Source: Streptomyces lonarensis (lineage in GTDB: Bacteria > Actinomycetota > Actinomycetes > Streptomycetales > Streptomycetaceae). From it: a stretch of 64,000 nucleotides of DNA. Positions 3,980-26,849 of the stretch are shown one piece after another. The first letter of the stretch is position 1; each line of letters opens with the position of its first letter. The translations under genes were made by a program, and so were the position numbers. Location of the stretch: positions 1 to 64,000 of the forward strand of contig NZ_JAAVJD010000005.1 in the NCBI RefSeq assembly GCF_012033735.1. Direction: 5' to 3'. A model generated the notes under the pieces. That model saw only the letters and a program-made list of their open reading frames with translations, ran no database searches and was not told where the DNA came from.

Positions 3980-5612
3980 ATGACGCGAACGGACGACCGG
4001 TTGCTGCCGGTCCTGCTGACGGCCGCCCAGTTCCTGGTGTGGCCCCGGGTTCCGCTCCTGCGCGGCCAGGTGCCGGACACGGCCGGCCCATCTGCCGGCC
4101 GTGGCGCCGGCCGCGCTGGTGGTGGCGGGCGCACTGACGGTGCGGCGCGAGCGGCCCGTACCGGCACTGGTGGCGACCTGCGGGTCGCTCGCGCTGGTCT
4201 CCGGGGCACTCCCGGTGGGCGCCACCGCCGTGCTGGGGACGGCGGGCACGGCGCCGGCCCTCCACGCGGACGCGCTGTCGCGGGACAGCGGCACGGCGCT
4301 GCTCTGCACGCTCACCCTGGCGCTGTGGCAGCTGCTGCGGATGGTGCCGCTCCACGGCCTCGGCGAGCGGGACGGGCTGGACCTGGCGCTCACCGCGGTG
4401 CTGTACGCGGGGGCCTGCGGGTGGGGGGCCGCGCGGCGTGCGGCACAGGCGCCGGTCGCGGCGCTGGTCCTGCTCAACCCGCTCGTGCCGATGACGGTGC
4501 CGCGGGCGGAGGGCAGCGGTGGTGGCGAGGAGGTCTCGACGGGGCTGGTGTTCGCGCTGGTAGCGGCGGCCCGGTCCGTGGTCCTGCTGTGGTCGGCCCG
4601 GGCACCGCACGCCGGCAGGTGTGCCGGCGCTCGTGGCGCTGCGGCCGCCGGCGGCCTGGGCGGGCGGGTACGACGGGTCGCCGGTGGCGCCCGCGGTGGC
4701 GAGCGGTGTGGCGCCGGCGGTCGCCACCGCCGCGACCCGGCACCCTGCGTGGGCGGCCCCGGCGGGTGCGGTCGCCGTCCACGCGGCGGTCGGGTGGGCG
4801 GTCGCCGCACGGTCGGACCATGTGCCGGGGTGGGAGGCGGCGACCGCGGTCGTGGCGCCCGCGGTGCCGGCGGCGGTGGCTGCAGCCTGGTGGTCCGGCC
4901 GCCGGGACGGGGAGCGAGAACGGGTGGCACGACGGGAGCACGAAGAGCGGATCACCGGGTGGACGGGGGAGGCGGTGCGGGACGCGTGGGCCGAACGCAG
5001 CCGGGTCACGGCCGGGTTGGAGAAAACGGTGTCGGCGAGGACCACCGGCATGGTCCGCGAGGCGGAGGCCGGCCGGCTGGCCGAGACGGCCGAGCGGGCC
5101 CGGGAGGCGCTCGGCGCGATGCGGGTGCTGCTCGACCGGCAGGGCGGGACCACCGCGTACGCCGAGCGGCGGCCGCAACCGACCCCGCGTGCGCTGAACC
5201 TGCGGGTGCGGCAGAGCCGCGCCGCCGGCCGAAGCGCCTAGATCCGGGCGGAGGCCGCGGCGTTGCGGGGGCTGCCGGTGGCGGTGGACCTGGCCGGCTA
5301 CCGGGCGGCGGAGTCGCTGCTGGAGCGGCGGGCCGCAAGCCGGTGGCGCTGCGGCTGGAGCGCGGCCCCGACCGGTTGACGCTGCACGCGGACGGGCTGC
5401 CGGAGCTGCCGCCGGAGCGGTGTGCGGAGCCGGCCGCGGCCGCCGTGATGCTGCGGGGTACGTTCTCCACCGCGCCGCCGGGCGGCGCCCGGCTGGTGCT
5501 TCCGCTGGGAAGCGGGTGGATCGGGGAGGCGGCCGACGACGGACGCCCGGCGGGTTGTGACGGACACGGGGGCGGCGCCCCCGAGGAGAAGGGGGGTCCC
5601 CGATGTCGGTGA
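3980..5612 (+). pseudogene. Decayed two-component sensor histidine kinase
   Basis: Fragments of one kinase are spread over two or three frames. The ATG at 3980 gives about 33 residues of an N-terminal membrane segment (LLTAAQFLVWP). The reading then moves near 4070-4100 to a frame encoding more membrane helices, shifts again near 4610-4630 to a dimerisation-like helix (EHEERITGWTGEAV ... EALGAMRVLLDRQGG), hits an in-frame TAG at 5239-5241, and shifts a third time near 5330 before the final segment (GTFSTAPPGGARLVLPL). No canonical H-box (REMHD type) and no ATP-binding GxGxxG box is left. The helix resembles the atypical actinomycete kinase group that lacks the usual H-box. Four separate lesions make sequencing error an unlikely sole explanation. 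The intact response regulator follows and overlaps its end. Confidence 0.75.
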
Positions 5613-23196: not shown

Positions 23197-23709
23197 TCAC
23201 CCATGGGAGTCAGCCCTCGGCCACGGATCGAGTCCCGGATCGGAGTGCAGACAGCGCAGCGGGCGATTCGCGCGGACCGCCATCTCCAGGGAGTCTTCGA
23301 AGGTGGGACCGAGCTCCCAGATCCAACCCATGCCGGCAGCAACCACTCTCCCCCCGGCTTCTACGAAGACACTTGAGAAACTGAGCCACTCACCGATGGG
23401 AAAACAGTACGCACCGAGAACATCCTCCACCTCTTTTGCCAGGCCACGCTGTCCTGATCCAGCGGCGATGGGATCGACATTGTAGGGCTCGTCATTACTG
23501 AAGTTCGGGCCGACTCGATTGAGGGGATCGATCGAGAGCCCTCCCACCGTCGCAAGGATCTCCACCGCCAACGGGTGGGACCGGTACCCTTCACGCTCCA
23601 TCTGCTCCACCCATTGTCCTGCGTCGACCCTCCTGTCTGCGCTCCACCCGGACGCGACAAGCGCGCCGATCAGCTCCTCGCTCAGCGAGTCGAAGCGAAT
23701 CGGGGACAT
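23197..23709 (-). CDS. SUKH-3 domain immunity-type protein
   Basis: 170 aa, ATG 23709 with an excellent GGAGGT site nine bases upstream. The sequence follows the SUKH-3 pattern: SEELIGALVASGWSADRRVDAGQWVEQMEREGY, HPLAVEILATVGGLSI, an EDVLGAYCFPIGEW segment and GGRVVAAGMGWIWELGPTFEDSLEMAVRANRP. SUKH proteins are typically immunity proteins against polymorphic toxins (nuclease or deaminase toxins). No toxin gene is adjacent. Codon use is less GC-biased than neighbouring genes, pointing to transfer. It may be an orphan that protects against toxins of kin. Confidence 0.85.
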   Translation of the reverse strand: MSPIRFDSLSEELIGALVASGWSADRRVDAGQWVEQMEREGYRSHPLAVEILATVGGLSIDPLNRVGPNFSNDEPYNVDPIAAGSGQRGLAKEVEDVLGAYCFPIGEWLSFSSVFVEAGGRVVAAGMGWIWELGPTFEDSLEMAVRANRPLRCLHSDPGLDPWPRADSHG

Positions 23710-23878
23710 CAGTTGACCTCCGGATTCTCCAGCAGTGCGTTGGGCCAAACCCATCGCGCAGGGTGTGCGCTTGAGGTGACAACGAGACCAAGCCCCCGAT
23801 CGGCGCCCCGAGGCGTGACGGCATGTGGCGTGCGAGCGAGCGTGCGGCGACGGTTTCGGCCCGGGCTCGGCCTCCGGC

Positions 23879-24661: not shown

Positions 24662-26849
24662 CTACTCGTCGCCCGCCTTCAGGTGCCGGGCGGGGTTGAG
24701 GCCCTGCTCCAGCAGGTCCACCGCCCACGCGGTCTGCTGGACCCCCTCCACCTTGCACATCCCGGGCGAGGGGCCGAACCGGAACGCGCCGGGCACCGGC
24801 GCGCCGTCGGGGGTGTGCGGGACGAGCCCGCGCGGCGACAGGTCCGGGACGGAGTAGACGACGCAGTCGGAGAGCACGGCCAGGGGATAGCGTCCGGTGG
24901 CCGCGGCGGTCCGCGCCATCTTGCGGTGCATGTTCACCCGGGCCCGTGCGATGACCGCCGCGCGGATGTCCGGCCGCCAGGTGGGCCGCTCCAGCGCCGG
25001 CCACCGGTCCCCGGGCCGGTACCGGCGACCCTGCGGCCGCTCCCGCAGTTTGCCGATGCCGCCCTTGACGGTGGCTTTCACCGCAGTGAGGACCGCCGCG
25101 GCGGCCGGGTCGGACGCCTTCACGCGGTCCATGGCGGCCAGGTACTCCTCCTCGTCGAGGTCGGCGGTGACCCCGAGATCCGCCAGCGTCGCGAGGTAGG
25201 CCGCCCGCAACCGGTCGTGCCACGGGTCGAGGTACGGGCCGGCCTCGTGGCGGAGGTACGCCTCCGACGGCGCCACCTCGTGGCCGAGTTCCCGTGCGTA
25301 GGCCACGGTCTGCGTCTGGTACCACGCGGGCCCGTCCGGCGGGAGGCCGGAGGGGGTGAAAGGCGAGGGCAGCCGCGGGTCGAGCACGATGCCCGAGAGG
25401 TCGACCAGCCAACTACCGGGAATCCGCGGGTCGAAGTCGGGCGCCCGGACGTGGCGCGGGCCGCTCAACCCGACGGGCAGCCGCGAGGCCGCCGCGAGGA
25501 ACGCCGCGTTGATGTCCAGCCCGACGGCGTGGGGGCGCGCGCACTCCTCCCCGGTCAGGGTGTCCACGTCCGCGGCACCACTGGTAGGCCTCCTCGTCCA
25601 GGAAGCCGCCCGTCCACCCCTGTGCAACGGGGTGTTCGGCCGGGGCCTCGGGTGGTGCCGGGTCCACGGCCTCGGTTCCGAGCCCGCCGGGGTTGGGTGC
25701 CGAGGCCCAACCGCCGGAGCGGTCCCGCACCGGCCGGGTGGGCGGCCGCAGCGAGGTCATCAGCTCCAGTCCGGAGACGGCCGGCGAGCCGCGGGGCGTG
25801 AGGACCCGCCTGGCGTAATCGGTGAGCGCCCCGGCGATCACCGGAGGGGGCAGCTCCGCGAGGCCGGGCCAGGTCCGGGGGTCCAGCGCCTCCCAGGGCA
25901 GCACCGCCAGTTGGACGCACCGACGGAGTCCCTCGTGGACCGGCCGGTACAGCCGCGCCCAGGGGCCGAGGCCGCGGCGGGTCAACTGCCAGCCGGCGGT
26001 GAGCACCTCCCGCACGACCGGGTGGTCGTCCTCCAACCGCAGCTCGCGGCGCTGGTGCGGGGTGGACAGTTCGGCGGGCAGCCCGAGGCGGAGCGCCGCG
26101 GATTCCGTCAGCACGACCAGCGGATCGGCCTCCCGCCCGTGGCGGTGCAGCCGGCGCGCGCCCAGGCCCGCGGCCAGCGCCCACTCCGCGAGCTCGGGCA
26201 GCGTGGCCGCCGGGCAGGACAGCACGAGACCGTCTGCGGCGTGGGCGTCGCCCTCGCCGTCGAGCACCGCGAGAGGACCGTGCGGAGGGCCGCTGTCGGA
26301 GCCGTCCGGGACCGGGTCGGCGCGTGGCCCGGGCGCGGTGCCGCGACGCCCGGTGCGGCGGGCCCCCGCGCGAGCGGATCCCCGTTCCGGCCGGGGTGCG
26401 CCGTCCCGCGAGGGCTCCTCGGCGCCGGCGGGTCCGGCCTCCGACCGGACGGCGGCTGTGGCGTCGGCGGAGTCGGTGGAGTCGGTGGAGGCGGTGAAGG
26501 CGGCGGAGCGGTCGGACGCCGCGGGGGTGCCGGGCATCGGCGACGACGCCGGGGCCGGCGCCGTCGGGGCGGCGGGGGCCGGCTCGGTGTGCGTCCCCGG
26601 CGGCGGGTACTTGGCGGCCCAGCCCTCCAGCAGTCTCCGGTAGGCGGCGAGTCGCGGCGGTCTCGGCTCGGAGCGGCCGGACTCCCAGTTGGCGACCGTC
26701 TGCGCCGTGGAGCGCAGCACGGTGGCCAACCGCCCCTGGGTGACTCCCGCGGCCTCGCGAAGCCGAGCGCGCTCGGCCGGTGGCGGCAGCTGCGGTTCCT
26801 CCTCCAGCAGCGCGTCGACGGACGCGAAGAGCTCGTCCTCCGTGGTCAA
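24662..26849 (-). pseudogene. tap: Telomere-associated protein Tap, one-base frameshift
   Basis: The N-terminal part, from TTG 26849 (GGAGGAG six bases upstream), encodes an HTH (LREAAGVTQGRLATVLRSTAQTVANWESGRSEPRPP) then the Tap core (GPWARLYRPVHEGLRRCVQLAVLPWEALD, VLTPRGSPAVSGLELMTSLRPPTR). Just after FLDEEAYQW the frame is lost; the rest continues in another frame with DVDTLTGEECARPHAVGLDINAAF to HLKAGDE. One surplus G within 25570-25577 (TGC CGC GG AC) explains the shift: without it the gene is 729 codons, close to Tap's usual 740. Tap binds the telomere 3' overhang and recruits Tpg. The rest shows no decay, so it may be a recent mutation, a slippage site or an assembly error. Confidence 0.9.

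Follow-up and report, generated by a model that had tools for sequence, protein, structure and literature searches.

The window, a 64,000-nucleotide stretch of Streptomyces DNA, forms the start of one contig (C438:1-64000) in a 482-contig, 5.95 Mb draft assembly. It carries the gene pair tap and tpg of the archetypal telomere system, and its features are collected in Table 1. Streptomyces chromosomes are linear and protein-capped. The archetypal tap lies on the minus strand between 26849 and 24662 and is read in two frames, the first matching positions 1-400 and the second positions 397-694 of the 695-position NCBIfam profile NF047542 in the genome-wide search; when the window alone was searched, the second match started at position 400. 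The first frame (478 aa) starts at 26849 and closes with a stop at 25413, its last 51 residues being out of frame with Tap; the second is open over 25627-24662 (321 aa). Both halves align with Tap gap-free, and neither reaches the 600-bit cut-off for a whole Tap. The terminal protein gene tpg follows intact, and purB is found on the far side of tap from tpg. The first-pass annotation had described a tap broken beside an intact tpg and continuing in another frame with Tap similarity, and the matches to NF047542 and NF047541 bear this out for the assembly.

Compared with an archetypal Tap/Tpg locus (NF047542, NF047541), every stretch of Tap is present, including the N-terminal helix-turn-helix (HTH) head, and an intact tpg stands next to it. 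The locus differs in that no single open frame exceeds 600 bits, as the two pieces each fall below the cut-off, and in that Tpg has two extra residues.

Table 1. Coordinates of the telomere-type genes and associated features. Positions refer to the window unless contig C59 of the same assembly is named.
Feature	Position	Strand	Basis or remark
SUKH-3 immunity-type protein	23197-23754	-	directly downstream of tpg
tpg, terminal protein gene, intact, 186 aa	23879..24439	-	NF047541, 264 bits (cut-off 90); alignment with 11 relatives
tap, 3′ part	24662..25569	-	NF047542 positions 397-694, 521.5 bits; predicted phi29-like polymerase core (fold)
Motif C-like LSDCVVYS, predicted beta hairpin	24851..24874	-	named by eye and fold
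Motif B-like KATVKGGIGK	25049..25078	-	named by eye
Motif A-like GLDINAAF	25499..25522	-	G, D, A and F invariant in alignment A1; named by eye and fold
Net one-base insertion zone	25568..25580	-	both pieces aligned with 70 distinct Taps; periodicity model, 25580
tap, 5′ part	25570..26849	-	TTG start at 26849; NF047542 positions 1-400, 466 bits
HTH_3 of Tap, residues 29-73	26631..26765	-	Pfam PF01381, E 5e-7
P0003, intact Tap-like HTH protein, 455 aa	C59 7674-9041		matches the Tap model in the HTH region only
P0004, small TP-like protein, 192 aa	C59 9041-9619		one-base overlap with P0003
Helicase with HA domains	C59 10038-12677	opposite to P0003/P0004	
Array of six perfect palindromes	C59 13034-13165		stems of 6-10 pairs

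A codon-periodicity model places the frame change of tap at 25580 with a gain of 42.7. In the alignment of relatives several placements are equally good, all between a conserved W codon and the D/V codons that come after it, so we give the insertion as a zone and leave the base unnamed. The surplus G that had been proposed near 25570-25577 thus stands as a net gain of one base somewhere within 25568-25580. Removing one base from 26849-24662 gives the predicted 729 codons, with the stop counted. The longest homopolymer within 25560-25590 is 2, and codon use is gene-like on either side of the break (GC3 0.91 and 0.95). The break falls at a domain border, about 18 residues ahead of the motif A aspartate and before the polymerase core; upstream of it the 3′ frame remains open and has start codons nearby.

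The neighbouring Tpg scores above the NF047541 cut-off and has the sequence TTDDD at residues 114-118, including T114 and T115, so that Thr 114 is followed by Asp residues as in archetypal Tpg (the role of T114 is treated in PMC3572947). Its two extra residues are absent from 11 of 11 relatives, with the TTDD core kept. tpg starts about 220 nt after tap; this spacer is 2-6 nt in 13 of 20 named relatives and up to 233 nt in the others.

We compared the site with 77 related loci (L012-L088), comprising the 30 best whole-profile matches and 47 fetched through the C-terminal piece of Tap alone. The first set favours intact genes and therefore weighs less. Both Tap pieces were found in 75 of the 77 loci (70 distinct), in one frame every time. 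Within the second set, in which the named relatives belong to Streptomyces and near genera, the two pieces shared a frame at 45 of 47 loci, and at the remaining two, L058 and L074, the C-terminal part alone was found. None of the 75 two-piece loci had a shift at the tap site of the kind that a programmed frameshift would lead one to expect in relatives.

These counts bear on whether the locus could still yield a working Tap, either through a +1 shift or through a separately started 3′ part. An open 3′ frame with start codons close by, a break at a domain border just ahead of the polymerase core and gene-like codon use on both sides would all suit such recoding or a split gene. However, the 45 C-terminal-fetched loci with both pieces are in one frame, none is shifted at this place, and the site has no homopolymer longer than 2. 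Since related Taps are read in one frame, we consider recoding or a split gene very improbable, and the earlier suggestion that the cell might recode the shift is not borne out.

The two loci with the C-terminal part only suggest that decayed Taps occur elsewhere. L058 retains approximately the last 230 Tap residues, in a genome (G012) that consists of one contig of about 9 Mb and has two family matches, one of which was examined. L074, from Streptomyces sp. D2-8, is possibly a decayed tap. In-frame stops occur in three listed Tap matches, two in G148 and one in G160, both genomes with several Taps.

A draft assembly may itself introduce single-base errors, and the broken tap would then be an artefact of assembly or base calling in a cell whose gene is intact. 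The assembly was scanned with the codon-periodicity model, which includes frameshift states and was trained on the genes of this genome. The scan covered 40 stretches (648 kb of 5.95 Mb, 526 kb of it called coding), with events whose 5′ frame ended within 30 nt left out as gene overlaps. As a control, one-base indels were simulated in genes of this genome; 283 of 300 were detected within 60 nt, 120 of the 300 with a gain above 20. In the 526 kb of coding DNA, only two frame changes combined a gain above 20 with at least 200 nt of coding sequence on either side, namely tap (42.7) and an IS110 transposase (23.3). The events L134:1136 (gain 60.9) and L130:3416 (30.5) have only 5 and 6 nt of coding sequence on one side and were set aside as boundary effects. 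About seven weaker candidate frame changes, with gains of 2.6-12.5, have coding sequence on both sides. The small number of strong mid-gene changes indicates that the assembly is not rich in frameshifts, and the idea of an indel-ridden assembly found no support in either the scan or the simulated-indel control.

An artefact nevertheless deserves serious weight. The draft is in 482 contigs and has an apparent chimeric join at the end of contig C59, there are about seven weaker candidate frame changes, and both halves of Tap are well conserved, which is what one would expect after an assembly error. Against this, the 526 kb of coding DNA held just one more strong frame change within a gene, that of a transposase, the method recovered 283 of 300 simulated indels, and the site lacks a homopolymer (longest run, 2). 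On this evidence we regard an error in the draft as quite possible, although not probable. The frameshift in tap is in itself unremarkable as an event, and it may be an error.

Some sequence features of the locus give mild signs of relaxed constraint, which do not amount to proof. Conserved columns are altered at 3 of 101 positions in the 5′ piece and 4 of 119 in the 3′ piece, and 8 and 6 of 70 relatives, respectively, deviate equally or more, which places both halves within the range of relatives. The conserved V of QWVR is substituted next to the break, and the protein has GDE at its end, a position at which 67 of 70 relatives have GE. The long spacer and the extra Tpg residues belong with these signs; long tap-tpg spacers and odd tails also occur in strains with intact genes.

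Two further observations from the scan concern other genes. The frame change in the IS110-family transposase lies near position 862 of contig C59, and a weaker possible pair of frame changes (gain 12.5) lies in one gene region of the window, at 4618 and 5336 on the plus strand.

The end fill-in enzyme of these telomeres has been a puzzle. Tap is reported to perform the reaction (PMC4513846), and yet that 2015 paper describes Tap and Tac as lacking homology to each other or to other proteins, as lacking a polymerase motif and as forming a new class. The same source reports that nucleotides are added to the terminal protein in vitro, with Tap priming on Tpg and Tac on Tpc, and that the products of Tap are short, up to 13 nt.

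Structure prediction points to a polymerase. The C-terminal piece of Tap from the window was modelled from 24 sequences (301 aa; mean pLDDT 80.8, with a range of 80.8-55.9 over five models). Its nine best matches in the PDB by Foldseek were all phi29 DNA polymerase, with a probability of 0.99 and a best E of 3.9e-3, none being below 0.001. A VIA-align superposition on phi29 polymerase gave a Z of 11.2 over 234 residues (rmsd 5.0). Among the named matches in a viral library, the first were DNA polymerases from a tectivirus, a podovirus and Harvfovirus; the best E in that library was 4.1e-4. The same picture came from the model of L065, a relative with a complete Tap of 699 aa (mean pLDDT 74.6). 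Its nine best Foldseek rows were phi29 polymerase (best E 2.5e-5), and residue 147 to the end aligned with phi29 residues 5-537 at a Z of 15.8 over 399 residues (rmsd 6.1, 9% identity). Structural matches ranking below phi29 had a Z under 10 and were nearly all recognisable family B polymerases. The predicted structures thus give Tap the fold of a family B protein-primed DNA polymerase.

Three stretches of the predicted core (Table 1) are presumably motifs A, B and C, labels that follow common usage for family B polymerases. Tap shares with the phi29 type the predicted fold from residue 147 on, the order of the A-, B- and C-like stretches and, from the known biochemistry of Tap, the use of a protein primer. 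It differs in its N-terminal HTH, in a structural identity of about 9%, in its short in vitro products and in that archetypal Tap gave no match by HMMER or by profile. Sequence-only searches with archetypal Tap found no polymerase match among Pfam, PHROGs or PDB profiles, and its profile did not align with phi29-like polymerases. The family of the Tap-like protein on contig C59, described below, aligned with eight phage polymerases over 181 columns running through motifs A, B and C, at a moderate probability of 56 and a pairwise E of 1.1e-4. The paired stretches, C59-type first, are VLDVNAAYLSA and VFDVNSLYPAQ for motif A, MYAKFVST and LYGKFASN for B, and GTDELHVAG and DTDSIHLTG for C.

Our reading of Tap as a polymerase, which builds on predicted structures and this one moderate profile alignment, departs from PMC4513846. 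The statement in the first-pass annotation that Tap brings Tpg to the chromosome ends appears understated, as Tap also adds nucleotides in vitro (PMC4513846) and has a predicted phi29-type fold. The predicted fold points to residues for mutation. Among titles and abstract openings, we found no published account of a polymerase fold in Tap or of proteins for telomeres of the Sg2247 type, to which we return below.

A search of the 5.95-Mb draft for the Tap family revealed no second full Tap. It gave one match of 84 bits, in the HTH region, on contig C59 (13,277 bases); beyond C59, further matches were short HTH stretches. The C59 match is to P0003, which is followed by P0004 and, on the opposite strand, by a helicase. 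P0004 matched nothing in Pfam or NCBIfam, and its profile comparison with Tpg gave a probability of 13. We call it TP-like from its place, size and neighbours, and regard it as a putative terminal protein. Tap and the C59-type family align over the HTH at a probability of 99, and the C-terminal part of Tap alone aligns with that family over 107 columns from motif A onward, at a probability of 47. By domain type the helicase resembles TtrA (named in PMC8743542). P0003 is matched in 407 plasmid records, and 14 of the 30 listed place the match less than 10 kb from the record end.

The C59 pair may also be of a kind already described. Like Tac/Tpc (SCP1) and GtpB/GtpA (S. griseus), to which we liken it by description, it consists of an HTH protein beside a smaller protein. 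Strains with only GtpB-GtpA are reported to have GGA-loop telomeres (PMC7205883), a loop type also seen on C59, so the pair there may belong with GtpB/GtpA. The telomere-type genes have arsenic resistance genes next to them (ArsC-like, ACR3, ArsR and ArsI-like; C59 3971-6414).

The six palindromes of C59 lie 3.4 kb from the Tap-like and TP-like gene pair and have the loop GGA in five cases and GTA in one. In a control without matching of stem length, 200-base stretches were drawn at random from this genome, and 11 of 2000 held at least six stem-loops with 5 pairs or more. The array aligns with bases 3-46 of pSGZL (90.9%) and with bases 29-70 of pPZG101, a plasmid of S. rimosus (93%). Its packed hairpins and similarity to known ends are those of an Sg2247-type telomere, a class represented by pSGZL, S. 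rimosus ATCC 10970 and S. albidoflavus J1074 (pSGZL is listed among this type in PMC8743542). It departs from that type in being followed by about 105 bases common to contig C58, and it occurs on one contig only. Positions 13171-13277 of C59 are identical to approximately 8797-8902 of C58 (L119), in the interior of that contig, and the junction falls at a short common GCGCAGG. The end of C59 beyond the array therefore looks like a chimeric join with C58 made by the assembler.

Among plasmid records the array was matched in 35, in 33 of which it lay within 300 bases of the record end. At least 16 of these 33 also carry a match to P0004, counted among the 60 matches listed of 150 P0004 records. 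An array at the end accompanied 15 of the first 29 listed P0004 rows (50.5-56.8% identity) and 1 of the next 31. The 33 included no record from the 30 Tap matches listed (of 402) and no record from the 15 archetypal-telomere matches listed (of 58). Many of the plasmids are related and come from one strain collection, so the P0004 and array counts are not independent. A search of this genome with a real archetypal plasmid end found no archetypal telomere (best E 0.06), an absence that weighs little because drafts often miss telomere ends.

A 2021 paper reported no relatives of Tap, Tpg, Tac or Tpc for the Sg2247-type class, and for these telomeres the pair on C59 and its kind offer a concrete candidate. 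A second tap elsewhere in the genome, considered in the first-pass annotation, was thus found in part: the draft yielded no second full Tap, but the Tap-like P0003 with its TP-like neighbour lies near a telomere-like array. Similarly, of the proposal that the cell must use another Tap or telomere system or else recode the shift, the first part accords with a second telomere-type system in the genome and the second is not supported.

We infer that the lesion is present in the cell and is null, and the C59 pair presumably serves either the adjoining telomere or the chromosome. The explanation towards which we lean, as somewhat probable, is a recent one-base frameshift that made tap null in a Streptomyces with a second, different telomere-type gene pair. 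An intact Tap would join an HTH head to a phi29-like protein-primed DNA polymerase, bind the folded 3′ overhang and add the first nucleotides to Tpg (compare PMC4513846). At archetypal telomeres Tap would thereby begin to fill in this overhang, with Tpg as primer. The 5′ product of the broken gene would consist of the DNA-binding head and 51 out-of-frame residues, its active site gone since the break precedes the motif A aspartate. With the head on this product and the A-B-C core in the other frame, DNA binding is possible and polymerisation would not be expected. tpg would be left without a working partner, and on at least one replicon ends would be patched by the C59 pair beside its Sg2247-type telomere. 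A real lesion would abolish archetypal end patching, and then either the C59-type system would keep the ends or the chromosome would be circular. Plasmid-borne pairs are reported to keep chromosomes linear in other species (PMC8743545).

The second of these outcomes is part of a further alternative, in which the lesion is real, the C59 pair serves its own plasmid only, and the chromosome is circular or is kept linear by a Tap that was lost or left unassembled. Circularisation is reported to follow deletion of tap and tpg (PMC8743542), curing of a tap-tpg plasmid from S. clavuligerus gave circular chromosomes (PMC8743545), and both circular and linear topologies occur among sequenced Streptomyces (PMC11260486). 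The S. clavuligerus cases, however, had lost terminal segments, whereas tap-tpg is still present here, and we consider this alternative unlikely.

Returning to a null tap beside a second gene pair, a broader reading can be put forward tentatively, as one that falls a little short of probable. Tap and the C59-type proteins would be HTH-fused phi29-like polymerases, so that end patching would share descent with viral protein-primed replication and would not merely be convergent with it; the C59 pair would be the end-patching pair of Sg2247-type telomeres, here replacing the tap killed by the frameshift. If real, the broken tap would offer a natural example of the decay of one telomere system in the presence of a second. 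It is the second system and the predicted phi29-like fold of Tap, more than the lesion itself, that merit follow-up.

Life without an archetypal Tap appears to be common in Streptomyces, allowing for draft assemblies. Among 199 genomes of the genus, counting this one, a Tap-family match at E 1e-20 was found in 158; in 138 a match exceeds the cut-off, and 61 lack an above-cut-off match. The C-terminal piece of Tap also matches 26 Rhodococcus plasmid records, which indicates that Tap-like proteins extend past the Streptomyces group.
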